Shown here piece by piece: positions 190 to 53,165 of a stretch of DNA of 64,000 nt. The first letter of the stretch is position 1, and every line of letters begins with the position of its first letter. Source of the DNA: Archangium primigenium (lineage in GTDB: Bacteria > Myxococcota > Myxococcia > Myxococcales > Myxococcaceae). The stretch is taken from NCBI RefSeq assembly GCF_016904885.1, contig NZ_JADWYI010000001.1, positions 7,683,224 through 7,747,223 of the forward strand. Reading direction: 5' to 3'. A program made the translations under genes and the position numbers. The notes beneath the pieces were generated by a model. It worked only from the letters and a program-made list of their open reading frames with translations. It made no database searches and had not been told where the DNA came from.

Positions 190-3100
190 TCACTTCACGG
201 GCAGCGGAGCCGACGCGCACACGCGCAGGCCCACGCTGAGGTCGCGGAAGTTGGGCTCGGGGGTCTCCCGGTTGGGGATGCGGGCGGTGCTGGAGGCGTA
301 GTAGTAGCTGCCGCTGCGCGCCACCGGACGGCCCGACTCCAGGGCGGAGTCCACCCACTCGAAGACGTTGCCGGCCATGTCCTCCAGCCCGAAGGGGCTC
401 CGGGACTCGGGGTGGCGGCCCACCTCGTCCGGACCGAAGTTGGCGCCCACCTTGCCGTAGGTCTCGTCGAAGTTGGCCTGGGTGGGCAGCAGCACGTCGC
501 CTTGGGGGAACTCGCGCGCGTCGGCGCCCCGGGCGGCGCGCTCCCACTCCAGCTCCGAGCACAACCGGGCGCCGGGGACCTGGCCCGTGCTCGCCAGCCA
601 CGCCGTGTAGGCCTTGGCGTCCTCGAAGTTGATGGCGCCCACGGGCATGCGCCGCCAGTCCTGCGCCACCTCGCGGGGACGCTGGGTGTAGCGGATGGGC
701 TGCCCCTCGTCGGCCTCGTAGGCGACCACGTTGGGCATGATGCGCAGGCGCCAGCGCCCCTGGGGCGAGCGCGTGAGCGCCACCTCCGCGTTCACCGACG
801 TGGCCGAGGCCCCATGCGGCGAGCGCAGGGCCCGCTCCGCGGCGGGCAGGGCCTCCAGCCAGCGCAGGTACTCGCCATACGTCACCTCGGTGCGCGCGAT
901 GAGGAAGGGGCCGGTGTGCAGCGTGTGCAGGGGCGTGGTGTTGAAGAACTGGCGGACGTTCTCGTCCGCCGCCGTCCCGAAGAGGAAGGCGCCGGCCGGC
1001 ACGTAGACGAAGCCCTCGGGGACACGCTCCACCTCGGGCAGGAAGAGGTCCAGGGTGAGCTCGGTGCCGGGCTCGGCCCGCAGGGGGTAGCGCACGGGGA
1101 CACGGCCCGGCGCGCGCGCCTCCAGCATCCACGTGCCCCGCTCCAGCGGCGGTGCCTCCACGGGGGCCGGCCCCAGCTCGCGGACCGGGGACAGGACACG
1201 CTGGTCGTCCACGGTGTCGTAGCGGGCCAGGGACACGGTGGCCCCCTCGGGCTCGGTGTGCACCCGCAGGCGCATGGGCGTGGTCCAGCGCGCCAGCCAG
1301 GTTCCCCGGGTGTCATGCAGGCGCAGGCGCTGCAACAACTCGTCCCGGTCCTCGGTGCGGAAGGCCCGCTCGGCCAGCTCCGCGCGCTCGGCCAGCACCT
1401 GGGCGAAGGCCTCGCGCACCTCCGCGCGGGTGGGATCCAACATGAGCGCCCGCTCCAGGGTGTCCCCCACCTGCCCCAGGGCCAGATCCGCTTCGCGCTG
1501 CAGCCGCAGCGTCTGGCTCCAGCGCGGATTGGCCTCCGCGAACCGGCCGGCGTCGAAGAGCGCGAGCGTCTCCGTGCGCGAGCGCTCCAACGCCTCGCGC
1601 CGCTGCCGCGCCTGCTCCCCCTGGGCCCGGGCCTCCTCCAGGCGCGCCGTCACCTGGCGCTCCAGCGTGTGCCAGGCATTCACCCGCACGCCCGCGTACA
1701 CCAGCGCCAGCGACGCGATGAACCCCACGCCGAGCGTCCGCGCGATCAACCGACCCCGGCGCAGGGCCAGACGCGAGGCCTCCAGGAAGCGCTGCTCCCG
1801 CTCGGAGAGCACCTCGTCCGGGTGGGCCTGGAGCTCCGCCAGTTGCCGGGCGCCCCACAGCGCCTCGCGCGCGCGGCCCAGACGCTCCCATTCGGCCGAC
1901 GCCTGCTCGAGCCGGGCGAGGAACAGGCGCGCCTCCTGGGCCTCCGCCAGCCACTGGGCGAGCGTGGGCCAACCGGTGAGCAGCGCCTCGTGGGCGATGT
2001 CGAAGGAGGAGCCCTCCTCGGAGCGGCGGGCCACCACCAGCCGCGCGCGGATGAGCGCCTCCAGGGCCGCGGGCGCGGCGGGCTCCCGGCCCAGCAGCTC
2101 GGCCTCCGAGCGGCGCGCCCGCGTGTTGTCCACCGTGACGAGCCGCATGAGCAGCCGCCGGGCCGCCACGCGTTGGTCCGGCAGGAGCTGGGCGATGATG
2201 CCGTCCGCGTAGCGCGCGAGCGCGCCGTTGACGCCGCCGAGGGCCTCCAGGGACGCCGCGGACAACAAGCCCCGCGCCACGTCGCGCGCCTCCCACAGCT
2301 CCGCCAGGGTGAACTGCAGCAGCGGCAGTCCGCCCTCGGCGCTCAGCGTGGAGTCCACCAGCGCGGTGATGAGGGCCTCGGACTCGAAGCGCGCGCCCTT
2401 GAGGCGCACCGGACCGGTGATGACCTCGCGGATCTCCTCCCGGCCCAGGGGGCGCAGCAGGTAGAGGGCGCGCGAGAGCGCCTCGCCCAGTCCGGGCAGC
2501 ACCCCGAGCCGGGTGAGGAAGTCACTGCGGACCGTGGCCAACAGGCGCATGCCCGGCAGTCCCGAGGCGAGCTGCGCGAGGAACTCCGCCATGAGCAGCG
2601 CTTCCCCCGGCTCGCTCAGGGTGACGAGCTCCTCGAGCTGGTCCACGTGCAGCAGCAGGCCCTGGCGGGTCTGCTCCCCACAACCCTGGGCGCGCAGGGC
2701 CCGCACCAGCGCGGTGGGCTCCTCGTGCGCGAGCTGCGCGAGCCGCGCCTCCGCGATGGGGAAGTGCGGGGCGAGCACCGAGGCCAGGGTGGCCAGCGGA
2801 CGGCGGCCGGGCACCATCCGCGCCGAGCGCCAGGAGAAGCCATCCTCCAGCGCGCCCTCCACCACCCGGGGGATGACGCCCGCCAGACACAGCGAGGACT
2901 TGCCCACGCCGGAGTCGCCGGTGACGAGCACGAAGGGGTTGGCGCGCAGGCGCTCCACCACGGCGCGCACCTCCCGCTGGCGGCCGAAGAAGAGCGCCCG
3001 GTGCTGCTCCTGGAAGGCATGGAGTCCCCGGTAGGGATTGCCCTCGGGGATCTCCAGCAGGTGCTCGCTGGCGCGCACGTCCTCCAGCGCCTCCAGCAGC

Positions 3101-3978
3101 GCGTCCGCGGAGGCGAAGCGCTCGAGGGGATCCCGCCGCAGGCACCGGTCCACCACCGCCGCCAGCCGCGCGTCCACGTCCGGACGGACCTCGGCCAGGG
3201 GGCGCGCCTGCTGCTCCTGGACGACGCGCGCCAGCGAGCGCGGGGGCACGTGGCGGAAGGGACCCCGTCCGGCGGCCAGCTCGTAGAGCACCGCCCCCAG
3301 GGAGAAGAGATCCGCGCGCACCGTGGAGGGCTGCGCCGCCCAGGCCTCCGGGGACATGAAGTAGGGCGTGCCCACGAGGGTGCCAGGGGTGAGCGAGGGC
3401 AGCTCCAGGGCTCCGGGGGACGCGAGCTCCTCGGAGAGCCCCGCCCCGTCCGCGCTCCCCGTGCCCTCGGTGAGCGCCACCGGCACGTCGAGCAGCTTGG
3501 CCAGCCCGAAGTCCAGGAGCTTCACCGTGCCGGTGTCCTCGAGGATGGCGTTGCCGGGCTTGATGTCGCGGTGCAGGACGTTGCGCCGGTGGGCGGCGGC
3601 GAGCCCCCGCGCCAGGCCCACGCCAATCTCCAGCACACGTTGCCAGGGCTGGGGCCGGGCGAGCCGATCCAGGCTCGTGCCCCGGATGTACTCGGAGACG
3701 AGGTAGGGGTGCCCCTCGAACTGGCCCGCCCGGTAGAGCGTGGCGACGTTGGGGTGCTGGATGCGCGCGGCGGCGCGGGCCTCGGTGAGGAAGCGCGGCA
3801 GGGCGTCCGCGTCGAGCACCGGGATGAACTTCACCGCGACCGGGCGCTCGAGCAGCGTGTCCTGGGCGAGGTAGACGTGGCCCGTGCGCCCCTGTCCGAT
3901 GGGACGCACCAGCCGGTACTCATCGACCTCGGACGGCGGCTGCCACGCGGCGGGGGAATGAACGGGAGGCTCGCTCAC
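190..3978 (-). CDS. Ser/Thr protein kinase - nSTAND NTPase - PEGA - FGE-fold fusion
   Basis: A 1262-residue signalling protein. Residues 20-300 are a Hanks-type kinase with glycine loop, Lys50, HRD Asp138 and DFG Asp156, so it should be active. Residues 315-720 are an nSTAND-type NTPase with Walker A at 354-361 and the HVDQLEE Walker B at 444-450. One membrane segment lies at about 748-766. It is followed by a probable coiled coil, a PEGA-like beta domain (903-980) and a formylglycine-generating-enzyme (SUMF1/C-type lectin) fold from about 985 to the end. The cysteine pair used by true FGEs is absent (this stretch reads GSYYYASSTARIP), so the C-terminus is more likely a binding domain than an enzyme. 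The start overlaps the upstream response regulator by ATGA. The topology suggests an outside sensor domain with kinase and NTPase in the cytoplasm; that is inference. Confidence 0.9.
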   Translation of the reverse strand: MSEPPVHSPAAWQPPSEVDEYRLVRPIGQGRTGHVYLAQDTLLERPVAVKFIPVLDADALPRFLTEARAAARIQHPNVATLYRAGQFEGHPYLVSEYIRGTSLDRLARPQPWQRVLEIGVGLARGLAAAHRRNVLHRDIKPGNAILEDTGTVKLLDFGLAKLLDVPVALTEGTGSADGAGLSEELASPGALELPSLTPGTLVGTPYFMSPEAWAAQPSTVRADLFSLGAVLYELAAGRGPFRHVPPRSLARVVQEQQARPLAEVRPDVDARLAAVVDRCLRRDPLERFASADALLEALEDVRASEHLLEIPEGNPYRGLHAFQEQHRALFFGRQREVRAVVERLRANPFVLVTGDSGVGKSSLCLAGVIPRVVEGALEDGFSWRSARMVPGRRPLATLASVLAPHFPIAEARLAQLAHEEPTALVRALRAQGCGEQTRQGLLLHVDQLEELVTLSEPGEALLMAEFLAQLASGLPGMRLLATVRSDFLTRLGVLPGLGEALSRALYLLRPLGREEIREVITGPVRLKGARFESEALITALVDSTLSAEGGLPLLQFTLAELWEARDVARGLLSAASLEALGGVNGALARYADGIIAQLLPDQRVAARRLLMRLVTVDNTRARRSEAELLGREPAAPAALEALIRARLVVARRSEEGSSFDIAHEALLTGWPTLAQWLAEAQEARLFLARLEQASAEWERLGRAREALWGARQLAELQAHPDEVLSEREQRFLEASRLALRRGRLIARTLGVGFIASLALVYAGVRVNAWHTLERQVTARLEEARAQGEQARQRREALERSRTETLALFDAGRFAEANPRWSQTLRLQREADLALGQVGDTLERALMLDPTRAEVREAFAQVLAERAELAERAFRTEDRDELLQRLRLHDTRGTWLARWTTPMRLRVHTEPEGATVSLARYDTVDDQRVLSPVRELGPAPVEAPPLERGTWMLEARAPGRVPVRYPLRAEPGTELTLDLFLPEVERVPEGFVYVPAGAFLFGTAADENVRQFFNTTPLHTLHTGPFLIARTEVTYGEYLRWLEALPAAERALRSPHGASATSVNAEVALTRSPQGRWRLRIMPNVVAYEADEGQPIRYTQRPREVAQDWRRMPVGAINFEDAKAYTAWLASTGQVPGARLCSELEWERAARGADAREFPQGDVLLPTQANFDETYGKVGANFGPDEVGRHPESRSPFGLEDMAGNVFEWVDSALESGRPVARSGSYYYASSTARIPNRETPEPNFRDLSVGLRVCASAPLPVK

Positions 3979-23735: not shown

Positions 23736-24875
23736 CTACCCCTTGGCGACGCAGCGCCCGACGTGACGGTCGAGCACCTGCGTCGCCACCAGGGACTCCT
23801 GCTCGAAGCGCTCGCTCAACCACGGCCCGACGAGCCGCGCCACGTCGTCCTCGCACTCCGGGTTGGCCAGCCGCTCCTTCACGGGCCCGAGCCACACGGG
23901 CTGGGGCACCGAGACGTCGAGCAGGAGCGTGAGGCCCTCGAAGAGCAGCACCTCGTCGAAGGAGCCGTAGTAGTCCCACTCGCGCCGGGCCACCCGGGCG
24001 TAGTGGCCCAGGGCCACGGCGAGGCCCTGGAGCAGGCCCTGCACATGGGCCCCTCCCAGGGCGCGGAACTGGTTCACCCACGTCACCACGCGCGAGCCCG
24101 GCGCCCGGCACCACTGGAGGCTCAGGCGCACCCGGACCGCCTCGCTCTGGCCCTCGAAGAACCAGGGCGCGTGCAGGGGGGCGGCGTCCTGGGACAGCCG
24201 CTCGCTGTACTCCACGAGGCCCCGCGCGAAGCAGTGCCGCTCCTCCAACTGGCGCACGTCATCGTTCAGCCAGAAGGACACGCCGGGATGCAGCGCGGCC
24301 AGCTCCGCCATCCGCCGCGACAGGCCCAGGACGGACAGGCGCGTGCTCTCGAAGACGGAGCGGTCCGGGACGAACCGGATGCGCGTGCCCTTCACCGCCG
24401 GACGATTGCCCACGGGCGGCGGCACCTCGCGCGAAGGGCCGGCCGGCTCACCCTCCACGAAGGACTGCCGCCACGCCTTGCCCTCGAGCACCACGGACAG
24501 CTCGCACTTGGAGGACAGCCCGCTGACGATCGCGAGCACATCCCCCAGGTCCCACGTCGACAACGCCACGGGGGCCCGATCCGGCTTCGGCGGGCGGGGG
24601 GCCTTGTCCTCCAGGGAGCACAGCCGCTCCAGGGCATCCCCCGGCGGCTCGGGCACGAGCCCCTTGGGCCACAGCAGGCCATCGAAGGTGAAGGTACAGG
24701 CGCCGCCCTCCTCCAGCCGCACCCGGACCTCCGTGCCCCGCCCCTCGCTCGCGGCGAGGGCGCCCAGTTGCAGCAGCAACAGGGGCAGGCGGTGGAGGCC
24801 GTAGCCGCCCACGTCACCCACGTACGCGCCGGGCCGCTGGCGCATCCGCTGGAGCCATTCTCGCGAGGCCGTCAT
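23736..24875 (-). CDS. stand-alone degenerate GyrB/ParE ATPase-transducer protein lacking ATP-site residues
   Basis: A 379-residue protein that follows the N-terminal half of GyrB from end to end but stops before TOPRIM. RPGAYVGDVGGYGLHRL (14-30) matches RPGMYIGDT..GLHHM; GKAWRQSFVEGEP, VKGTRIRFVPDRSVF and LHPGVSFWL match the following GyrB strands; LSLQWC and RALGGAHVQGL (272-281) match the transducer ALQWN and DGGTHLAG; and VWLGPVKERLANPE with Lys333 matches the QTK loop. Yet the GHKL motifs are lost: the helix with the Glu and Asn of EVVDNAIDE reads LLQLGALAASEG, DDGRGIP reads FDGLLWP, and GGLHGVG reads TWDLGDV. ATP binding is therefore unlikely. It could be a scaffold, a gyrase inhibitor or a DNA-binding relic. 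An 88-residue gene lies 30 bases upstream. Confidence 0.75.
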   Translation of the reverse strand: MTASREWLQRMRQRPGAYVGDVGGYGLHRLPLLLLQLGALAASEGRGTEVRVRLEEGGACTFTFDGLLWPKGLVPEPPGDALERLCSLEDKAPRPPKPDRAPVALSTWDLGDVLAIVSGLSSKCELSVVLEGKAWRQSFVEGEPAGPSREVPPPVGNRPAVKGTRIRFVPDRSVFESTRLSVLGLSRRMAELAALHPGVSFWLNDDVRQLEERHCFARGLVEYSERLSQDAAPLHAPWFFEGQSEAVRVRLSLQWCRAPGSRVVTWVNQFRALGGAHVQGLLQGLAVALGHYARVARREWDYYGSFDEVLLFEGLTLLLDVSVPQPVWLGPVKERLANPECEDDVARLVGPWLSERFEQESLVATQVLDRHVGRCVAKG

Positions 24876-24905
24876 GGGGCGAGTCTAACCCCGGCGCCCG
24901 CGCCC

Positions 24906-25172
24906 CTACTGGAGGTAGCGCAGGCGGACGTCGGATTGCTCCTCGGCGAGCCGCTCCAGGCGGGCGGCGAACTCCGAGCCCGCGCGGACCGCCGCTTCCT
25001 CGTCCGTGTGGGTCGACAGCGGCATGAACGTCCCAGCGGCCTGATCGCACAAGCCGATGCAGAACTCCCCGGTCTCCCGATTCTGGGCACGCACGAGGGA
25101 GACATCCCCCGACAGGCGCCCCAGGCGCGCGAGCAGTTCCTCGTCAGTGAGATGCAGGTACGTCGAGTTCAT
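24906..25172 (-). CDS. small acidic protein of unknown function upstream of pseudo-GyrB
   Basis: An 88-residue protein with a good GGGAGG ribosome-binding site. It begins MNSTYLHLTDEELLARLGRL, a short helical motif, then a beta-hairpin-like part (GEFCIGLCDQAAGTFMPLS) and a charged C-terminal helix. It has no signal peptide or membrane segment. I do not recognise the family. It is the first gene of an apparent two-gene unit with the pseudo-GyrB, 30 bases apart, so the two may act together. Confidence 0.62.
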   Translation of the reverse strand: MNSTYLHLTDEELLARLGRLSGDVSLVRAQNRETGEFCIGLCDQAAGTFMPLSTHTDEEAAVRAGSEFAARLERLAEEQSDVRLRYLQ

Positions 25173-25411
25173 TCACACCTCCCACGCGGTCACTCGCCGT
25201 GGAAAAGCCCGCTCCGGCGGTTCCGCTCGTCATTCATGCGCCGCGCCCGGTGTCTTCGCCCGATGGAATCCACGCCCACTCGTACAGGAAGCAACAGGAC
25301 GGGCACAACCCAGGCCCCTCCGCTTTCGCGGAAATAAATCCGCGCAACTGGCGGAGCCCGCTGTCCGACAATGGAAACAGAGACTCTTCTTCCCTCGAAA
25401 GGGCGCCCGCC

Positions 25412-25549: not shown

Positions 25550-26423
25550 GCGCCCGCGCCTCCTCCAGGCTCGCCGCGCAACGAAAGCCGAAGTGGTGGA
25601 AGACGGGCCGGTTGGCGGGCACATGCGGCCGCCGGTACACCGCCGTCGCGTACTCGGCCGGCCAGTACCACGAGCCCCCGCGCACCACCTTCTGGGTGTG
25701 GCCGGGACACGGTTGAGCCCCGCCACACGGGCCCTTGGGATCCACGCCCTGGCACGCCTCGCCGCACGCCTTCCACGAGGGGCTGTACCAGTCCGCCACC
25801 CACTCCCAGGCGTTGCCCGCCATGTCGTACAGGCCGTAGGCATTGGGCGGCCGGGAGCCCACGGGCTCGGGGCGCCCCACGTCCGCATGCGTCCGCGAGC
25901 GCTGCGTGTGGCCACAACTCCGGCCCCGCGCGTCCCGGATGATCGCGCGCGCGCACGTGGCGGGCGCATCCCCCCAGGGGTAGAGCCCTCCGTCCGGACC
26001 CCGCGCCGCCTTCTCCCACTCGGCCTCGGTGGGCAGGTGCTTGCCGTGGGCCTCGCAGAACGCCTTCGCGTCGTACCAGCTCACCCCGTTGATGGGCTGC
26101 CGGGGGTTATCGAAGTCCCGGTAGTTCGGCCCCGCCTTCGGACAGCGGCCCGCCTTCTCGCAGGCCTTGTAGGCGCCGTACGTCACCTCGTGCGTGTCCA
26201 TGTAGAAGGTGCCCACCCAGACCCGGGCCCGGGGTCGGGCGGGCGGGTGTCGGCCTCCGTCGACGCCCCGGGTGAACAGGCCCCCGGGCACACACGCGAG
26301 CCCGGCGACGGGCCCGTCCAGACACGGCTGGGGCGTGGGGGTGGACGTGGGCGGCGGCTCCGCCCGGGCGAGGCCCACGAGCCCGAGCCCCAGGAGCAGC
26401 GCGCCGCGCCACGCGGCCGTCAC
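25530..26423 (-). CDS. exported FGE-fold (SUMF1/EgtB/PvdO family) protein
   Basis: A 297-residue protein starting at GTG, which overlaps the upstream stop as GTGA. It has a signal peptide (about 1-22, ending Ala-Arg-Ala-Glu), a Pro/Thr linker and a complete FGE-sulfatase domain: MDTHEVTYGAY, INGVSWYDAKAFC, TEAEWEKAARG, GLYPWGD, DMAGNAWEWVADWY, VVRGGSWYW and HHFGFRCA. The active-site Cys pair of aerobic FGEs is missing (YATAVYRRPH in that place), so it is unlikely to make formylglycine and more likely binds a ligand or serves another reaction of the superfamily. It is the last gene of a four-gene unit with the hybrid kinase. The frame continues far upstream antisense-free but without family similarity. 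Confidence 0.85.
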   Translation of the reverse strand: MTAAWRGALLLGLGLVGLARAEPPPTSTPTPQPCLDGPVAGLACVPGGLFTRGVDGGRHPPARPRARVWVGTFYMDTHEVTYGAYKACEKAGRCPKAGPNYRDFDNPRQPINGVSWYDAKAFCEAHGKHLPTEAEWEKAARGPDGGLYPWGDAPATCARAIIRDARGRSCGHTQRSRTHADVGRPEPVGSRPPNAYGLYDMAGNAWEWVADWYSPSWKACGEACQGVDPKGPCGGAQPCPGHTQKVVRGGSWYWPAEYATAVYRRPHVPANRPVFHHFGFRCAASLEEARALRSARP

Positions 26424-27469
26424 CGCACCGCCTCCCCCCTGGCGCTCCGGAGCGTCCGCTTGGCCCGGGCCTTCTTCACGAGCGCCTTGGCGACGAGCTG
26501 CTGCTTCTTCACCTCCCGCGCCTCGTCGGGGCCGGAGTCGAGCCGCGACAGGCCCACGGTCGCGACCGTGTCCGGCGCGTAGCGCAGCATGCCGCGCACG
26601 TTGCGCGTCTTGCGGTCCTCCAGCCACCGCAGGAAGCTCGGTCCCGACTGGGTGTTGTAGTGGTAATAGTCGTCCTTCACGTGGGAGATGCCGCGCTGGC
26701 CGCTCGTGCGCACCACCACGCTGCGCGCATCCAGCGGCAGGCCCTGGATGTTGGCGCGAAAGCGCGGCCCGTAGTCGAAGTACTGCTCGGCGTTGGACAG
26801 GTAGAGCACGCCCACCGAGTGCCTCGCCTCCAGCGCCGCGCGGCCCAGGGCGCTCATGCTGCGCGCCGCGGTGAGATCTCCCCGCACCAGGTGCACCTTG
26901 TCCTCCAGGTAGAGGCGGCGCAGGTGCGCGTAGTCCCCCGCGTCCACCAGGAAGCACGGCAGGGACAGCGCCTTCATCCGCGCCACCACGCGGAGCAGCC
27001 GACGCTCCACCGAGGCGCGCGCGCTCGCGTGGGCCAGCAGGGCCCCCTGCCGCTGCTTGCGCTCGGGATAGCCCTGGGTGACGAGGCGGCGCACCTCGGC
27101 CCGGCTCTCCGCGCGCCACAGCCGCAGGAAGTCCTCCGGCGTCGCCGCCTCCCGGAAGAGCACCCGGTAGACGCGGTGCAGGTCCACGATGGATTGATCG
27201 AAGTCGAGCAGGACCAGGGGCTCCGCGCGCGCCCACGCCGCCAGGAGATAGTTCTGGTCCGAGCCCACGCCCACGTACAGCCCCGGATGGTCCTTCACCG
27301 CGCCGTGGAACAGCTCCAGGTGCGCCTCGTTGGAGACCCAATAGTGCAGGCCCCGGACGATCTCCTTGGGCGCGGGATCCTCGGGCAGGGGGGGCAGCGG
27401 GGAGCCCGAGGGCTGCTGGGCGAGGGCGAGGGCCGAGACCAGCACGGCGGCGAGAGGCAGGAAGCGCAT
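26420..27469 (-). CDS. exported Rossmann-like protein, LIC_10091-type, function unknown
   Basis: A 349-residue protein with a signal peptide (about 1-18, ending Ala-Leu-Ala-Gln). The core reads YVGVGSDQNYLLAAW then PLVLLDFDQSIVDLHRVYRVLF, a Gly-rich loop and acidic strand end reminiscent of class I methyltransferase-like folds, and later VGVLYLSNAEQYFDYG and HVKDDYYHYN. It resembles proteins I recall from Leptospira (LIC_10091-type), with no established function; this match is from memory and unverified. The C-terminus is strongly basic (KKQQLVAKALVKKARAKRTLRS). It is coupled to the FGE-fold gene by a GTGA overlap and lies 30 bases after the hybrid kinase gene. Confidence 0.65.
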   Translation of the reverse strand: MRFLPLAAVLVSALALAQQPSGSPLPPLPEDPAPKEIVRGLHYWVSNEAHLELFHGAVKDHPGLYVGVGSDQNYLLAAWARAEPLVLLDFDQSIVDLHRVYRVLFREAATPEDFLRLWRAESRAEVRRLVTQGYPERKQRQGALLAHASARASVERRLLRVVARMKALSLPCFLVDAGDYAHLRRLYLEDKVHLVRGDLTAARSMSALGRAALEARHSVGVLYLSNAEQYFDYGPRFRANIQGLPLDARSVVVRTSGQRGISHVKDDYYHYNTQSGPSFLRWLEDRKTRNVRGMLRYAPDTVATVGLSRLDSGPDEAREVKKQQLVAKALVKKARAKRTLRSARGEAVR

Positions 27470-45011: not shown

Positions 45012-48000
45012 TCAGGCCGCCCGGACGCTCCGGCGCCGCCCGGACACGAACCGCGCGAGGGCGAACAGGCCCAGGAACAGGCCCGCGTCGCTCCCGGACG
45101 TGGCCCCACACCCGCAGCCGCCGCTCCGGGTGGTGACGGTCACCGGCGCCGAGGTCACCGTGTTGCCCGTCCCATCCGTGATGACCGCCGTCAGGACGTG
45201 CTCCCCCTCGGAGGCCGAGGTGCTGTCCCACACGGTGCTCAGCATGGACTCCGTGCCCTGGGCGATCTCCTTGCCGTCCACGAGGATGGCGAGCTTCGCC
45301 ACCGTCGTGCCCGAGGCCACCGCGCCCCGGGCGATGATGGTCACCGCCCCGGACACCGCGCCCCCGAGCGGCTCACTGAGCGCCACGGTGGGCGCCGCGA
45401 AGGTGTCCACGCGAATCCCGGCCGTGCCGGTGAGGTCACCGTCCATCAGGGTGAGCGTCGTCTGCCCTCCGGAGAGGAACGTCACCTTGAGGCCCTCGAG
45501 CGAGCCGTCCGTGAAGGTCGCGGTGGCGGGGAACACCGCCCGCGCATCCGAGCTCGTCACCCGGGCCTGGCCCGAATAGGACGGCGCCATGTTGCCGTAG
45601 GCGTCGTAGGCCAGGGCGGACAGGGTCGTCTCCCGGCCCGCGCTCACGCTCTCGGGGAGCGTCAGCTCGAAGCGGGCCGCCGCGCCCGCGAGCACCGCGA
45701 ACACCGGGCTCGTCCCCGCGGGGGCACCGGCCGTGCTCGCCACCAGCGTGTAGCCGTTGGCGGCCTTGCGCAGGCTCAGGGTGTCGAACGTCGCCACCCC
45801 GTTGACCAGCATCGCCGACGTGCGGCCCTGCAACACGTCGCCCCGCGGGTTCTCACCGAGCGCCACCGTCACCTCGCGCGTGCTGTCGTTGATGAGCGCG
45901 CCCGACGCGTCCCGCAGCTCCACCTGGACGCGCCCCAGCGGCGCCCCCGCCGTGGCCCGCGTCGGACTGGCGACGAACACCAGCCGGGCGGCGCCGTCGG
46001 CCGTCAGGACGTTGAAGGCCGGGCTGCTCACGGTGAAGGACGGGTCCGCCCGCGCCACCAGCGTGTAGCCCGAGCCCGGGCGGTCGATGCCCAGGTTGCC
46101 GAACGTGGCCACGCCCTCCACGGCCGTCACCACCGCGGTCCCCCGGAGCACGCCGCCCCCGGGGTTGTTGCCCAGGGTCACGGTGATGCGCGAGGCCGCC
46201 GTGGTCACGGTGTTGCCGTACACGTCCACCACCGCCACCTTCACCGCCGGGAAGAAGAGCGAGCCGGCGATGATCTCCCCGGGAGGCACGCTGAAGGCCA
46301 GCGCCGAGGCGGGACCCGCGACGATCTCGAAGGCGCTGCTCGTGGCCTCCGCGGCCCCCGCCACCCGGGCGATCAGCGTGTAGCCCGCGGCCGCCCGATC
46401 GATGGACAGCCCCGGGAACGTCGCCACGCCCCCGGAGGTGGTGACGGTCGTCGTGCCCTGGAGCGTCGCGCCCCGCGGGTTGTTGCCCAGCACGAGCGTC
46501 ACGGACTGCTCCGGGCGGGTGACCCGGTTGCCGTACGCATCCTGGAGCGCCACCTGGATGGCGGGGCTGATGGCCGTGCCCGCCACCGTCGTGCCCGGAG
46601 GCGTGGTGAAGGCCAGCGCCGCCACCGCTCCGGGCGAGATGTCGAACGAGGCGCTGAGCACGTCCGGCAGGCCGTCCACGTGCGCCAGCAGCCGGTAGCC
46701 CGTCGCCGCCCGGGTGATCGCGAGATCGCCGAACGTCGCCAGGCCGCTGCTGGCGCTCACCGTGGAGGTGCCCGTCAGCGTGCCGCCCGAGCCGCCCTGA
46801 AGCGACAGGCGCACGGCGCGCGCGTCCGACACCCGCCGCCCCTCCGCGTCCTGGAACTCCACCGCCACCGTGCCCAGGGGGCCCGCCGACGTGCTGGTGG
46901 GTCCGGGCTGGAACACGAGCCGCGTGGCCCCGCCCAGCGACAGCACGTCGAAGGCCGTGCTCGTCACGGAGGGAGCGCCGCTCGCCGAGGCCACCAGGGT
47001 GTAGCCCGTGCCCACGCGGTTGAGGCTCAGGTTGGAGAAGGTGGCCACGCCGTTGACGGTCGCCGCCGCCAGCGTACCCCCGAGCACTCCGCCCCCGGGG
47101 TTGTTGCCCAGGACCACGGTGATGGAGCCCGAGGCGGAGGTGACGGGATTGCCCAGGGCATCCACGTAGCCCACCTTCACCGCCGGGGAGATGGGCGCGT
47201 CCACGCCCACCCCGCTCGGCTGGACGACGAAGCCCAGGCCCGCGACGGCCCCCGGGGAGATGGTGAAGGACGCACTGGTGGCCTCCGTCAGCCCCGGAGA
47301 ACGCGCGGTGAGCGTGTAGCCCGAGCCCGCCTTGTCGATGGAGAGCGTGGAGAAGGTGGCCACTCCGTTGACGGCGGACACCGTGCTCGTGCCCGAGAGC
47401 GTGCCGCCCGACACCCCGCCCAGGCTCAACGTCACCGGCGCCGTCGCGCCCGCCACGCGGTTGCCCGACGCGTCCAGGACGTCCACCTCCAGGGAGGGCA
47501 GCACCGCGCCCGCCACGGCGTTGGCCGGAGCCGTCCGGAAGGCCAGCCGCGTCGCCGCGCCCGCCGTCACGTCGAAGCCCTGGCTCGTGCCGGAGACGGA
47601 GCCGGAGGTGGCCCGCAGCGTGTACCCCGTGCCCACCTTGTCCACGGTGAGGGTGGAAAATGTGGCCACGCCGTTGACGGCCGCCACCGTGCGCGTCCCG
47701 CCCAGACTCGCCCCCGAGGGATTGGTCCCCAGGGCCAGCGTGATGCTGCCCGAGGTGGTCGTCACGGTGTTGCCCAGCGCGTCCAGGAACGCCACCCGCA
47801 CCGGCGGCGAGAGCGTCGCCCCCGCGGCCGTCGTGCCCGGCTGCGAGAGGAAGCCCAGGGAGGCGACCGGACCCGGCTCGACGTTGAAGGACGAGGACGT
47901 CTTGGACGGCAGGCCAGCGACCGCCGCCTGGAGCGCATAACCGGTCCCCACCTTGTCCACCGTGAGGGTGGAGAAGGTGGCCACGCCCGCCGTGGTGCTC

Positions 48001-51000
48001 ACCACCGTCGTGCCACCCAGCGTGGCGCCCGCGGCGTTGACGAGCGACAACACCACCTGCGCCGAGGTGCCGGTGACGGGCGCGCCCGTGCTGTCACGCA
48101 CCTCCACCTTGACGGTGAAGGCCACGCCCGCGCCCACGCTGGCCGGAGGCGAGGTGGTGAAGGCGAGCTGGGTCGCGCTCGACGCGCCGACGGAGAAGGC
48201 CGTGCTGACGGCCGAGGCGAGGCCCGCGGACGTCGCCGACAGGGTGTAGCCCGTCCCCGCGCGATCCACGGACAGCGTGTTGAACGTGGCCTCGCCCGCC
48301 ACCGTGTTCACGGTGGGCGTGCCGCCCAGCGTCGCGCCACTCGGGTTGTTGGCGAGCGCCAGGGTGACGGAGCGGCTCGTCGTCGTCGCCGGGTTGCCGT
48401 ACGCGTCCTGCAGGGCGACCCGCACCGCGGGCGTGATGCCCGCGCCCACGGTGGTCGAGGTCGGCTGCTGGGTGAAGACGAGCCGCGCCGGTGCCGCCGC
48501 GGCGATGGCGAACGCGCCACTGGTGGCCGCCGTGAGCGAGCCCGACGTCGCCGTCAGCGTGTAGCCCGCCCCCGCCTTCTCGATCACCAGGTCACTGAAG
48601 GTCGCCACCCCGCCGCTGGCGGTCACCGACCGCGTTCCCGTCAGCGTTCCCCCGCTCGGGTTGGAGGCCAGCGCGAGCGTGACGACGGCCGAGCCGGTCG
48701 TGGGGTTGCCACTCTGGTCCAGCAGCGCCACGCGCACCGCGGGCGACAGGGCCTCTCCCGCGATGCCATCGGCCGGCGGCGTGGAGAAGACGAGCCGCGC
48801 CGGTGCGCCCGCGACGATCTGGAAGGAGGCACTGGTCGCCCCCGTGAGCCCCGAGGCGCTGGCGGCCAGCGTGTACCCCGCGCCCACCTTGTCGATGGAC
48901 AGGGTGCTGAAGGTGGCCACACCGTCGACCGCGCTCACGGTGGTGGTGCCGGACAGGGTGCCGCCACTCGGGTTGCTGGCCACCGCGAGCGTGATGCTCG
49001 GGTTGCCCGCCGTCACGGGATTGCCCGCGGCATCCACGAGGCCCACCTTCACCGCCGGAGAGATGGGCTGGCCCGCCGCCGTCGTCGTCGGCTGCACGGT
49101 GAAGACGAGCCGGGTGGCGGGATTGGACACCACGGTGGTGCTCGCTCCGCCCGACAGGCCGGGCCGCGCCGTATCCGTCACCGTGAGGGACTGGACGCCC
49201 GCGGTCTTGAAGGTGACGGACACGCTCGCCACGCCCGAGCTGAAGGCGCGGGGAGACGGGAGGACCGCCTGGGAGTCGCTGCTGGTGAAGGCCGCGCTGC
49301 CCGTGTAGCTGGTCGCCGTGTTGCCCGAGGCGTCCAGCGCCGTCACCGTGAGGGGAATGGCCACGTTGGGCGAGACCGCGGTGCCCAGCCCGGACACCCG
49401 GAAGGTCACCGCCGTGCCCGCGGGCACCGAGCGCGTGGAGCAACTGGACGCCGTGCCCGCGGTGAGGCGCACGTCATCCACGTAGGCGCCCTCGAGCGTC
49501 TGCGTGCTGTCGCTGAAGAAGCCGAAGGCGAACCACACCGTCCGCCCCGCCAGCGCGGACAGGTTCGCCTTGACCGTCTTGAGCGAGCCATTGGTCCCGA
49601 GCTGCTGCCCGCTCCAGGCCCGCACCGAGGTGCCCGTGATGACGCCGTCATAACCGCCCAGCGAGATGTACGGCGCGGAGGACGACACGGTGTCGGAGAC
49701 GAGGGTGAAGGGGCCCTGCGCGCCCGCGGTGCTGTAGGCGAGGTAGGCCCCGTCGTAGCCGGACTCCAGCGCGTACGCGAGGCTGAACGACAGCTCGGCC
49801 GCGGCGCCGCCGGTGGGCAGGGTGAAGCCGTTGATGCCCCCCGAGCCATTGCCGCCCAGCACCAGCAGGGCCTCGTGGCTGATGGGATAGGAGCCACCGC
49901 ACGTCGTGGTGTCGGGCCCGAAGCGGTAGGCCCGCGTCGCCGACTGGTAGCGGCACCCGCTCACGATGTTGAGGGCATTGCCCGTGCCCTGCGCCGTCGT
50001 GGGCACCCAGTACGAGGACGCGGAGGGCGGCCGGTTCGCGTCGAAGTCATCGAAGAAGCTCAGCGAGCCGCCACCCGCGCCCGAGGCCGTCACCGTGCGC
50101 TGGACCGTGTTGAGATCCTCCAGCGTGACGCTGGACGCCTCGGTGGCGCGCACCACGTAGTGGTACGCGGTGCCGTTCGTCAGGTTGGCGTCATCCGAGA
50201 ACGACGTCGCGCCCACGCCCGTGGCGATGCGGTTGGCCGCCGACGGCGTGAAGCCCGGCGTGGTGCTCCGGTACACCGAGTAGCTCAGCGTGCCGCCACA
50301 GGCGGGCGTCGCCGCGGCCCAGGACAGCGTGTTGGTGCAGGTGGACGAAACCCCGCTCGTGGCGCCCGAGGCCCCCGCGAAGGACGGCCGCGCGCCACAC
50401 GAGCCGCCCGGAACCGCCGAGACCTCGGCGGAGCGCGCGCCCTCCGCGCACGTCGTGGCGGAGACGGCGTAGTAGTGCCGCACGCCCGCCGGCAGGCCCG
50501 TGTCGGAGTAGGAGCCCGCGGCCACGGTGGCCACCTGCGTGTAGGGCCCCCCCGCGGTCGTGGCGCGGTAGACGGAGTACGACGTGGCCCCGTTCGTGTT
50601 CCAGGCCAGGTCGATGCGGTTGTTGCCCACCGCGCTCGCCGTCAGCCCCGTGGGCGCGGCGCCCGGCGTGCAGGCGGACGAGGCGTTGTAGATGACGAGC
50701 GCGTAGTCCTGATCCAGCGTGCTGCTGTTGTTGGGCACGCCGTTCGAGTTGATGTTGGTCGCCGTCACCGTCACGGTGAACGCGCCCGACAGCCCCGCGG
50801 GCAGGAAGACGCTCTCCACGTTGTTGACCGCGTCCGCGGTGCCGCCGCTCACCGAGTTGGCGCCGGAGAAGACGTTGCCCTTGTAGGTGACGCCGTTGTG
50901 CACCACGGTGAGGTCCAGGTTGTTGTTCCAGGCCCCGCCCGTGGTGGAGCCCGGCGCGTCCGTCCACGCGAGCGTGACGCGCACCGGCTTGCTCGAATCC

Positions 51001-53165
51001 GCCACCGAGGTGGAGACGTTCCGGGACTGGCCAGAGGCGGTGAACAGGGCCCCCGCGTCCTGATCCGACACGAGCCGAGGGGAGGCGTCGAACGACCGGC
51101 CCAGGTCCACCAGGCCCATGCCCTGGCCGTTGGAGTAGAGCGAGTCCGCCGCGCCCGCGCCCGTGAGGTACCGGGCGGAGTTCATCAGGAAGGCCTTGGT
51201 CATCGCCGGGCTCGGCGGGGCCTTGCCTTGGTTGATGAAGTACTGGCGCACGAGCGCCGCGCCGCCGGCGACCACGGGCGCGGCATGGCTCGTGCCCGAG
51301 GAGGCGAGGAACCACGACTGCCCGCTGGGGAAGAAGGACGACCCGGACGTGCCGCCACAGATGCCCACGCCCGTGAAGCAGGCATTGGCCTGACCCAGGG
51401 CGTTGGGCGGGTTGTTGCCGCGCTGCGCGTCGCTCTGGGGCACGCCGCCCAGCACGTGGGTGCCTGGCGCCACCAGGTCCGGCTTCCGTCGGCCGTCCGA
51501 GGTGGGACCCCGGCTGGAGAAGGCCGCCAGGTCGAAGGCGCTGTCGGCCTCGGCGTCGGTGAGGTTGCACCCGTCCGCGGACCCGAAGGGCCGCACGCTC
51601 TCGGAGGCGCCCACGGTGATGACGTTCTTGGCCGAGCCGGGGCTGGTCACGGAGCCCGCGACACTGCCCGAGTTGCCCACCGGGAAGACGATCACCATCT
51701 CCTGGTTGCCCGTGGTCGGGCTCGCCGAGCCCGCCGGCTGCGCGTCGCGCACCAGGGCGTCGTAGCGCTGGGCATCGGCGGTGTACGCGCTGGAGGAAGC
51801 GCCCCAGGCGCCGAGGCTGATGCGCATGCCGTTGGCGTAGGCCCGCGCCTGGAGGTTCTCGTAGTTGGGATAGGTGAAGGTCTCCGGATCGAAGACGACC
51901 GAGGAGCCCATCCGCACGAAGGGCGCCACGCCCAGGCCGTGGAAGTACCCCGACCCGTCCCGGAACGCCGTCCCGGAGCGCGTGGCATTGCCACCGATGA
52001 TGTGCGCGTTCAGGGCGCCGTGGCCGTCACAGCCCTGGAGCGTGCTGCCGCTGTTGGCGGTGCCCTCCAGGCGGCTGTAGACGAGCCGGCTGGTGGAGCT
52101 GGAGACGTTGCCGTCCGTGTACAGGCCGAAGTGGTTGGGCAGCACCGTCCCGTTGTCCACGCCGCTGTCCGACAGGTCCACGCCGAAGCCCGACGCGTCG
52201 AACTGCGCCTGGGTGAAGCCCCTGCCCGCCAGCCACGTCAGGTAGCCCGCCGCGCCAGGTCCCGCGCCCGACAGCTGCCCGGCGGCGATCAACGCCTGCC
52301 GCTCGTCCAGCTTCCGGGGCGAGACATGGGGCTGGATGGACACGACGTCCGGCCGGCTCGCGAGCTCGGACAGCAGCCGCCGATCCGCGGCCACCACCAC
52401 GTTGACGTACCCCAGCGCCTTCTGGACGACGGCCTCGCGCGACTGGTGTCGGCGCACGAGCCCCAAGGTCTCGGCGTTGACCGCCGCGTCCTCGACGAGC
52501 TGCACGGAGTAGGTGTCCGTGGAGACCGTGTTGAGCGAGGGGTCGAGCGTGTAGTCCGCCAGGTAGTCCCCGTTCCACTGGATGGCGGGCGTCTGGGCCA
52601 CGTGCGCCTGGAGCCGCTCCAGCGCCGCCCCATCGCCGTACACGAGGTAGGCGTTGTGGGGGATGTACGCCACCACCCGCACGCCCGTGGCCTCGAGCCC
52701 CGCGTGCCACTCGGGCCGGATGGGACCCACGAACTGCACCAGGTGCATGCGCGCGCCCGACCCCGCCACCTTCATGCCCTGGAGGGCCCGCCCCTGCTCC
52801 GACGCCGTGTCGATGACCCCCGCGTTGAGCCGCACATCATTGGACTCGTCCCGCGGCTCCACGCCCTCGCCCTCGGGCAGGGCCGCCAGCGCCGTGTCGT
52901 CCACCTCCACCAGCCGGAAGGCCCCGTAGTCCGCCACGGTGCGCACCGCCACGCCTCCACGCTCCAGGGCCGCGGCGCGCTCGGCGCTCAGCTGGACCTT
53001 GTGGAGTGCGAGCCCCGGGCGGAAGCCTTCCCGCGTGGCGACGGTGGGCGCTCCACCACTCGGCCGCCCACACGACAACACCGCCAGCAAGCCCAACGTC
53101 CCCAGCGCCCGCACACGGCCCCCACCGGCGCACATCGCGCGTGCCCGGTTCGTGGATGTCTTCAT
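45012..53165 (-). CDS. giant S8 subtilisin-like surface protease with Fn3 and eleven Ig-like repeats and MYXO-CTERM tail
   Basis: A protein of about 2717 residues. The N-terminus has a signal sequence with a lipobox-like Val-Leu-Ser-Cys. A propeptide precedes the subtilase domain, whose triad is Asp333 (DLSDSGVDNG), His381 (DGHGALNAH) and Ser625 (GTSHAAPVVAGG). A P/proprotein-like beta domain, two Fn3-type domains (LTASAVGNNRIDLAW) and one concanavalin-like part follow. Then come eleven similar repeats of about 104 residues (PISPAVKVGLVDAAGNPVT; GVATFSTLSIDKVG), flanked by two divergent ones. The end carries a MYXO-CTERM sorting tail: GCGCGATSG, a hydrophobic helix and RRRS. The tail implies surface attachment. 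The ATG at 53165 was chosen because it gives the proper signal region. A role in predation or matrix processing is inference. Confidence 0.93.
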   Translation of the reverse strand: MKTSTNRARAMCAGGGRVRALGTLGLLAVLSCGRPSGGAPTVATREGFRPGLALHKVQLSAERAAALERGGVAVRTVADYGAFRLVEVDDTALAALPEGEGVEPRDESNDVRLNAGVIDTASEQGRALQGMKVAGSGARMHLVQFVGPIRPEWHAGLEATGVRVVAYIPHNAYLVYGDGAALERLQAHVAQTPAIQWNGDYLADYTLDPSLNTVSTDTYSVQLVEDAAVNAETLGLVRRHQSREAVVQKALGYVNVVVAADRRLLSELASRPDVVSIQPHVSPRKLDERQALIAAGQLSGAGPGAAGYLTWLAGRGFTQAQFDASGFGVDLSDSGVDNGTVLPNHFGLYTDGNVSSSTSRLVYSRLEGTANSGSTLQGCDGHGALNAHIIGGNATRSGTAFRDGSGYFHGLGVAPFVRMGSSVVFDPETFTYPNYENLQARAYANGMRISLGAWGASSSAYTADAQRYDALVRDAQPAGSASPTTGNQEMVIVFPVGNSGSVAGSVTSPGSAKNVITVGASESVRPFGSADGCNLTDAEADSAFDLAAFSSRGPTSDGRRKPDLVAPGTHVLGGVPQSDAQRGNNPPNALGQANACFTGVGICGGTSGSSFFPSGQSWFLASSGTSHAAPVVAGGAALVRQYFINQGKAPPSPAMTKAFLMNSARYLTGAGAADSLYSNGQGMGLVDLGRSFDASPRLVSDQDAGALFTASGQSRNVSTSVADSSKPVRVTLAWTDAPGSTTGGAWNNNLDLTVVHNGVTYKGNVFSGANSVSGGTADAVNNVESVFLPAGLSGAFTVTVTATNINSNGVPNNSSTLDQDYALVIYNASSACTPGAAPTGLTASAVGNNRIDLAWNTNGATSYSVYRATTAGGPYTQVATVAAGSYSDTGLPAGVRHYYAVSATTCAEGARSAEVSAVPGGSCGARPSFAGASGATSGVSSTCTNTLSWAAATPACGGTLSYSVYRSTTPGFTPSAANRIATGVGATSFSDDANLTNGTAYHYVVRATEASSVTLEDLNTVQRTVTASGAGGGSLSFFDDFDANRPPSASSYWVPTTAQGTGNALNIVSGCRYQSATRAYRFGPDTTTCGGSYPISHEALLVLGGNGSGGINGFTLPTGGAAAELSFSLAYALESGYDGAYLAYSTAGAQGPFTLVSDTVSSSAPYISLGGYDGVITGTSVRAWSGQQLGTNGSLKTVKANLSALAGRTVWFAFGFFSDSTQTLEGAYVDDVRLTAGTASSCSTRSVPAGTAVTFRVSGLGTAVSPNVAIPLTVTALDASGNTATSYTGSAAFTSSDSQAVLPSPRAFSSGVASVSVTFKTAGVQSLTVTDTARPGLSGGASTTVVSNPATRLVFTVQPTTTAAGQPISPAVKVGLVDAAGNPVTAGNPSITLAVASNPSGGTLSGTTTVSAVDGVATFSTLSIDKVGAGYTLAASASGLTGATSASFQIVAGAPARLVFSTPPADGIAGEALSPAVRVALLDQSGNPTTGSAVVTLALASNPSGGTLTGTRSVTASGGVATFSDLVIEKAGAGYTLTATSGSLTAATSGAFAIAAAAPARLVFTQQPTSTTVGAGITPAVRVALQDAYGNPATTTSRSVTLALANNPSGATLGGTPTVNTVAGEATFNTLSVDRAGTGYTLSATSAGLASAVSTAFSVGASSATQLAFTTSPPASVGAGVAFTVKVEVRDSTGAPVTGTSAQVVLSLVNAAGATLGGTTVVSTTAGVATFSTLTVDKVGTGYALQAAVAGLPSKTSSSFNVEPGPVASLGFLSQPGTTAAGATLSPPVRVAFLDALGNTVTTTSGSITLALGTNPSGASLGGTRTVAAVNGVATFSTLTVDKVGTGYTLRATSGSVSGTSQGFDVTAGAATRLAFRTAPANAVAGAVLPSLEVDVLDASGNRVAGATAPVTLSLGGVSGGTLSGTSTVSAVNGVATFSTLSIDKAGSGYTLTARSPGLTEATSASFTISPGAVAGLGFVVQPSGVGVDAPISPAVKVGYVDALGNPVTSASGSITVVLGNNPGGGVLGGTLAAATVNGVATFSNLSLNRVGTGYTLVASASGAPSVTSTAFDVLSLGGATRLVFQPGPTSTSAGPLGTVAVEFQDAEGRRVSDARAVRLSLQGGSGGTLTGTSTVSASSGLATFGDLAITRAATGYRLLAHVDGLPDVLSASFDISPGAVAALAFTTPPGTTVAGTAISPAIQVALQDAYGNRVTRPEQSVTLVLGNNPRGATLQGTTTVTTSGGVATFPGLSIDRAAAGYTLIARVAGAAEATSSAFEIVAGPASALAFSVPPGEIIAGSLFFPAVKVAVVDVYGNTVTTAASRITVTLGNNPGGGVLRGTAVVTAVEGVATFGNLGIDRPGSGYTLVARADPSFTVSSPAFNVLTADGAARLVFVASPTRATAGAPLGRVQVELRDASGALINDSTREVTVALGENPRGDVLQGRTSAMLVNGVATFDTLSLRKAANGYTLVASTAGAPAGTSPVFAVLAGAAARFELTLPESVSAGRETTLSALAYDAYGNMAPSYSGQARVTSSDARAVFPATATFTDGSLEGLKVTFLSGGQTTLTLMDGDLTGTAGIRVDTFAAPTVALSEPLGGAVSGAVTIIARGAVASGTTVAKLAILVDGKEIAQGTESMLSTVWDSTSASEGEHVLTAVITDGTGNTVTSAPVTVTTRSGGCGCGATSGSDAGLFLGLFALARFVSGRRRSVRAA
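45688..49115 (-). repeat. eleven tandem Ig-like repeats inside the giant protease
   Basis: Each unit is about 311 bases (104 residues) and carries the same order of phrases: a strand ending DAxGNPV, then NPSGGTL.GT, then GVATFS.L.IDK.GxGYTL. Copies differ by substitution throughout, so this is an old duplication array, not recent slippage. Such bacterial Ig-like arrays form long stiff stalks. Confidence 0.85.

Follow-up and report, generated by a model that had tools for sequence, protein, structure and literature searches.

The closest described relative of the protein studied here is a solved Myxococcus xanthus structure, 3CWV, released in 2008 as 'DNA gyrase, B subunit, truncated'. Like our protein, it is a stand-alone GHKL-transducer half that lost the same motifs, at about 30% identity. 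By eye, 3CWV is nearly identical to two Myxococcus copies (L049 and L050) found between helicase and S8 peptidase genes; it belongs with them to clade B of the same 28-member clade (see below), whereas our protein sits on a long branch within clade A. Searches of open-licence PMC turned up no article dealing with 3CWV or with a truncated Myxococcus GyrB, and no earlier description of a gyrase ATPase half turned pseudoenzyme seems to exist. GyrB43 and ParE43, the ATPase-transducer fragments of true GyrB and ParE, resemble our protein in their fold over nearly the whole chain and in the transducer motif N...GG-H-G. In comparison with them, it displays neither the Bergerat ATP motifs nor the N-terminal dimer arm, the TOPRIM domain or the tail.

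Another TOPRIM-less GyrB half of about 390 aa is encoded by Streptomyces linear plasmids (L092 and L093) as an 'ATP-binding protein'. It forms a separate clade and, unlike the present family, kept Glu42 and DNGRG, although Asn46 was lost (by eye). Both genes (L092:3312-4490 and L093:4252-5427) occurred beside a helicase-associated-domain gene, near the ends of two linear plasmids. Five plasmid records carried this type at 78% identity or more, not all of them near an end.

A likeness of a different nature concerns factors directed at GyrB itself. According to PMC12136450, the toxin Cpe1, relatives of which were reported in Myxococcota, cuts GyrB and ParE at the loop LHAGGKF, and its cognate immunity protein Cpi1 acts by competitive substrate binding; FicT, mentioned in the same text, modifies Tyr109 of GyrB. 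The mode that our protein is proposed to share with Cpi1 is competition with GyrB/ParE for a binding surface, Cpi1 being described in that paper as devoid of significant structural homologues (PMC12136450).

The window, i.e. the whole stretch of DNA that was analysed, comprises 64,000 nucleotides from Archangium primigenium. As reported in the first-pass annotation, it carries a 379-residue ORF and, 30 bases upstream, an 88-residue ORF; both lie on the minus strand and have coding-like codon use. The larger one, hereafter pseudo-GyrB, displayed the following features:

23736..24875, minus strand: pseudo-GyrB, GHKL and transducer half of GyrB (ORF of 379 aa, stop codon included)
23763..24221, minus strand: transducer domain, residues 219-371 (PF00204 match, 2.2e-15)
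23877..23879, minus strand: Lys333, counterpart of the Lys in the GyrB QTK loop (from alignments; the loop reads GPVK here)
24555..24602, minus strand: residues 92-107, at about the ATP-lid position of GyrB (Pro-rich, pLDDT below 50; from the lid alignment)

Profile searches agreed with its initial assignment to the ATPase-transducer half of GyrB/ParE, ending before TOPRIM. TIGR01059 (gyrB) matched over profile positions 11-374 of 639 (E 4.4e-40) with a score far under its cut-off (137.8 vs 882.4 bits), and the PF00204 cut-off was passed (57 vs 27 bits). The protein corresponds to GyrB from the first helix onward and ends with the transducer, TOPRIM and the C-terminal GyrA-binding region being absent. 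Its best solved match by sequence was 3CWV (E 1.5e-32), above every true GyrB. Third-position GC of the other pseudo-GyrB genes (L036-L057) ranged from 0.777 to 0.913, against 0.955-0.975 in four of the group's GyrB genes.

The ATP site was examined in a family alignment of 28 complete members, window protein included, onto which the residue numbers of E. coli GyrB were transferred by motif. At positions 42, 46, 73, 77, 114 and 119 the window protein displayed L, L, F, L, W and V, which bears out the reported loss of the Glu-Asn helix, the DDGRGIP motif and the GGLHGVG box. Throughout the alignment, Glu42, Asn46, Asp73, Lys103 and Tyr109 were each kept in 0/28 members, Gly77, Gly114, Gly119 and Gln335 in 1/28 each and Thr165 in 2/28; positions 42, 46 and 73 were mostly occupied by Phe, Leu, Ser or Val. 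Homologues with intact motifs were not found, since none of the 28 members kept Glu42, Asn46 or Asp73. Tyr5 of the N-terminal dimer arm was aligned in a single member and missing in the 27 others. Judging from these residues, pseudo-GyrB can hardly bind ATP or form an ATP-driven N-gate dimer.

The conserved transducer residues were W255, N268, G275, H277 and G280, of which the core was kept in nearly all members (W255 in 28/28, H277 in 27/28, N268 and G275 in 26/28 each). Retention of the GG-H-G element and of the QTK-loop Lys, also claimed at first, holds for the window protein, where G275, H277 and a Lys aligned to K337 are present, Q335 being replaced by Pro. As a family rule the Lys did not stand: it occurred in 13/28 members and was Arg in 6/28.

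A structure model of the window protein (AF2) reached a pLDDT of 88.8 and a pTM of 0.88, with residues 92-107 as the one stretch listed below pLDDT 50. Its alignment comprised 47 rows, of which 43 were GyrB/ParE-like proteins taken from viral contigs and the others the window protein and three members of its family; an earlier model from four sequences was unusable (pLDDT 44.8). The GyrB relatives in viral contigs were recovered with an alignment as query, none being found with a single GyrB sequence. Superposition on the best GyrB43/ParE43 chains gave Z values of 37-39, in agreement with a predicted GHKL-transducer fold, and 3CWV superposed with Z 34.4 over 340 residues at 30% identity. In two fold searches 3CWV ranked 28 and 25, behind true GyrB43 and ParE43 chains, an order that may be expected from an alignment rich in GyrB. 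This composition biases the model toward GyrB, yet the same answer is supported independently by the solved structure of 3CWV.

The 28 complete members all came from one myxobacterial family. When 195 genomes of the phylum were searched with a profile, at least 25 carried one or more apparently complete copies, and stand-alone copies were restricted to the family of the window, both statements applying to the matches listed; weak or odd copies may be missed by such counts of best matches. Distribution over genera was patchy: 20/27 genomes in genus g19, which includes Myxococcus, 1/4 in the genus of the window, 1/6 in g3, 2/2 in g5 and 1/7 in g7, while three further genomes (G047, G075 and G119) had broken copies only. 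The 28 rows represent 21 of the 25 genomes; the other four (G044, G056, G097 and G120) were matched later, with tblastn as the sole check.

A 47-row tree placed all 28 members on one side of a branch with support 100/100, recovered in 100% of 200 bootstrap trees, separate from GyrB, ParE and the Streptomyces family. This tree is to be read with the caveat that it brings long branches together (those of family and Streptomyces rows), that letter make-up is uneven and that the window branch measures 0.96 changes per column. Two clades were distinguished, clade A comprising the window protein and 14 others, and clade B comprising 13 members including the 3CWV-like rows (L049/L050 stand in for 3CWV, which is not itself a row). 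The topology supports common descent of the pseudo-GyrB family apart from GyrB and ParE. The family would be a paralogue of the GyrB/ParE N-terminal half, and its parent may be GyrB or another line. A mobile carrier was also considered and dropped: the window protein as query found no relative in viral contigs, and the phage (27) and plasmid (84) records that it matched were all below 60% identity. Among the best 20 of 27 phage and 20 of 84 plasmid records, the annotated ones were gyrase B or 'ATP-binding protein', and many were unannotated.

Selection on the family was mainly purifying and often weaker than on GyrB. NG86 dN/dS ratios were 0.12-0.49 in 11/16 pairs of relatives and 0.55-0.76 in the remaining five, as compared with 0.20-0.27 for three GyrB pairs; all were below 1, hence the predominance of purifying selection. 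These figures describe the relatives, the constraint on the window copy itself not being measurable from a branch of 0.96 and a sole tested pair (dN/dS 0.83 at dS 0.87). The idea of a reused GyrB scaffold whose ATP site is gone is well supported by these ratios, by the confident model, by solved 3CWV and by the absence of ATP residues in 28/28 members. The 3CWV entry is one of a set of dead gyrase halves that are under selection, in part duplicated, and present in model bacteria, which makes direct knock-out and pull-down experiments feasible.

Tandem copies were recorded in 4/21 genomes: three complete and one broken copy at L040, three copies at L051 and two each at L042 and L045. Myxococcus copies occupied two main sites, either beside a DUF1361 gene (nine loci) or between helicase and S8 peptidase genes (seven loci), and outside these the neighbours differed. 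At the helicase/S8 site, both flanking genes were adjacent without pseudo-GyrB in 5/6 genomes examined (G107, G110, G111, G095 and G114), the S8 gene being unmatched in the sixth (G108). Short pieces resembling the flank and 3' end of the gene were seen by eye at the G107 site, which is likely to have undergone a deletion of pseudo-GyrB. The DUF1361 site was compared in five genomes; a 42-aa remnant occurred in G095 and no match in the other four. The helicase beside one clade B copy (L050:5359-7278, minus strand) matched PADLOC profile MkoA over positions 611-1081 of 1112 (E 3.5e-94), probably through a general helicase domain.

We tentatively regard pseudo-GyrB as a maintained pseudoenzyme, i.e. 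a constitutive, ATP-independent binding protein mimicking the GyrB/ParE ATPase half, a reading to which we grant somewhat less than an even chance. Upon loss of ATP use, the protein would work by binding a putative partner rather than by moving DNA, presumably through its GyrB-like surface. The likeliest partner would be something that recognises the GyrB/ParE ATPase-transducer half, for instance an antibacterial toxin or a phage factor, upon which pseudo-GyrB would act by competition; gyrase or topoisomerase IV itself would be the second candidate. With its patchy presence, duplication, divergence and loss, the family resembles a gene involved in conflict more than a regulator with a housekeeping role. 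A more specific and doubtful version, which takes up the decoy mentioned in the first-pass annotation, is that of a GyrB-shaped decoy of gyrase-directed factors: an ATP-dead, uncleavable mimic that would occupy toxins or phage proteins aimed at gyrase and that would have been duplicated and re-shaped in an arms race. If true, it would be a new way of protecting an essential drug target.

The loop cut by Cpe1 and the Tyr modified by FicT were both absent in 28/28 family members. A role as sacrificial substrate of either toxin was rejected for that reason, so that the family could at most be an uncut competitor. In GyrB itself, the loop was LHAGSKF in 7/26 rows, which eliminates the Gly-Gly pair at which Cpe1 cleaves E. 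coli GyrB, and LH[AS]GGKF in the other 19, while ParE displayed LHAGGKF in 3/3. The variant occurred in genera g1, g3, g5, g6, g7, g8 and g19 (e.g. L059:7076-9526); an exact DNA pattern for it was found in 57/96 genomes of the family, a count that misses variants such as G099, where the protein motif is present. All five genera with pseudo-GyrB are among these seven. The overlap fits the decoy, but probably reflects one clade and is thus weak evidence. Unlike Cpi1, the cognate immunity protein of its toxin, pseudo-GyrB was not accompanied by any toxin-type or immunity family in the few neighbouring genes scanned at the window locus and at two Myxococcus loci, and PADLOC gave no match for the window protein or for the L036 and L050 copies.

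The other role put forward at first is regulation of the host gyrase or topoisomerase IV, in which the protein would bind GyrB, ParE, GyrA, ParC or the DNA gate and tune or block activity. The fold is indeed that of the half forming the N-gate, and the transducer core residues are kept. However, the Tyr5 arm and the ATP site, both parts of the known N-gate dimer, are lost, and one would expect the regulator of an essential enzyme to be more widespread among genomes and to be duplicated and lost less often. We consider this role rather unlikely.

Decay offers a further, distinctly less probable explanation, in which the gene would be a functionless or dying accessory and the window copy would have persisted late in a lineage undergoing decay. 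Both closest relatives of the window protein, found in G047 and G075 (53% and about 50% identity), were broken, one by a scrambled stretch and a stop, the other by the lack of an internal part. Further broken copies were found in G099 and G119, and the remnant in G095 and the probable ones in G107 point in the same direction. Yet the window frame is intact over 379 codons with a host-like third-position GC of 0.953, its protein retains 42 of the 53 columns that 80% or more of the family members share, and the relatives evolved mainly under purifying selection.

It is very unlikely that pseudo-GyrB is a nucleic-acid-binding protein using the transducer cavity without ATP. The transducer core residues are among those kept, but their retention would be expected from the fold alone, and the transducer was no better conserved than the GHKL half (mean identity of 0.464 vs 0.487 in clade A and of 0.543 vs 0.539 in clade B). 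Selection on the transducer only was likewise rejected, both halves being about equally conserved with no particular surface standing out.

Finally, a two-gene system with the 88-aa protein, e.g. a toxin-antitoxin pair, is extremely improbable: both genes are adjacent on the same strand with a 30-base gap and the small ORF looks coding, but none of 194 other genomes of the phylum yielded a convincing relative of this ORF, whereas the GyrB-like family has many, and a promoter-like box lies within the gap. The upstream features are:

24882..24887, minus strand: TAGACT, promoter-like box 6 nt ahead of the pseudo-GyrB ATG
24906..25172, minus strand: 88-aa orphan ORF upstream of pseudo-GyrB (plausible gene, from GC by codon position)
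25178..25182, minus strand: GGAGG, ribosome-binding-like sequence before the ATG of the 88-aa ORF

GC by codon position in the 88-aa ORF (0.71/0.45/0.89) was coding-like. In the 195 genomes, it matched its own genome and four weak candidates (E 0.0014-0.0055) inside frames of 291-1089 aa; Pfam, NCBIfam and PADLOC gave no match, and PHROGs (E 0.033) and PDB (E 0.65) weak ones at best. The claim that it is a partner gene was dropped, since the pair is not conserved and only adjacency ties both genes. An orphan gene followed by a separate promoter-like box is most likely a chance neighbourhood.

The pseudo-GyrB ATG is not preceded by a ribosome-binding-like site. A TANNNT box was found 5-8 nt upstream of the start in 18/28 family genes, from both clades and including the window, although these rows are related and do not represent 18 events. 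In the same sequence, background occurrence was 8/375 for called genes (family members not removed) and 56/10493 for ATGs. Eight of the ten members without box displayed a ribosome-binding-like site, and two had neither at the chosen start. A TANNNT box at this position can indicate a leaderless transcript. Leaderless mRNAs are common in a Streptomyces, according to PMC8780764, and no such data were found for Myxococcus in a literature search. A sigma-70 consensus scan requiring two hexamers detected no promoter at TAGACT. From its sequence and position, this promoter-like box may be pseudo-GyrB's own promoter, giving a leaderless message.

Other genes of the window were also noted. A 1262-aa protein (190-3978, minus strand) unites in a single chain domains of the Ser/Thr kinase, nSTAND1 NTPase and FGE-sulfatase-like types, and a 2700-aa protein (45012-53114, minus strand) carries a bacterial Ig domain as well as an S8 peptidase domain. 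The gene of a DUF7790 protein (26420-27469, minus strand) overlaps that of an FGE-sulfatase-like protein.
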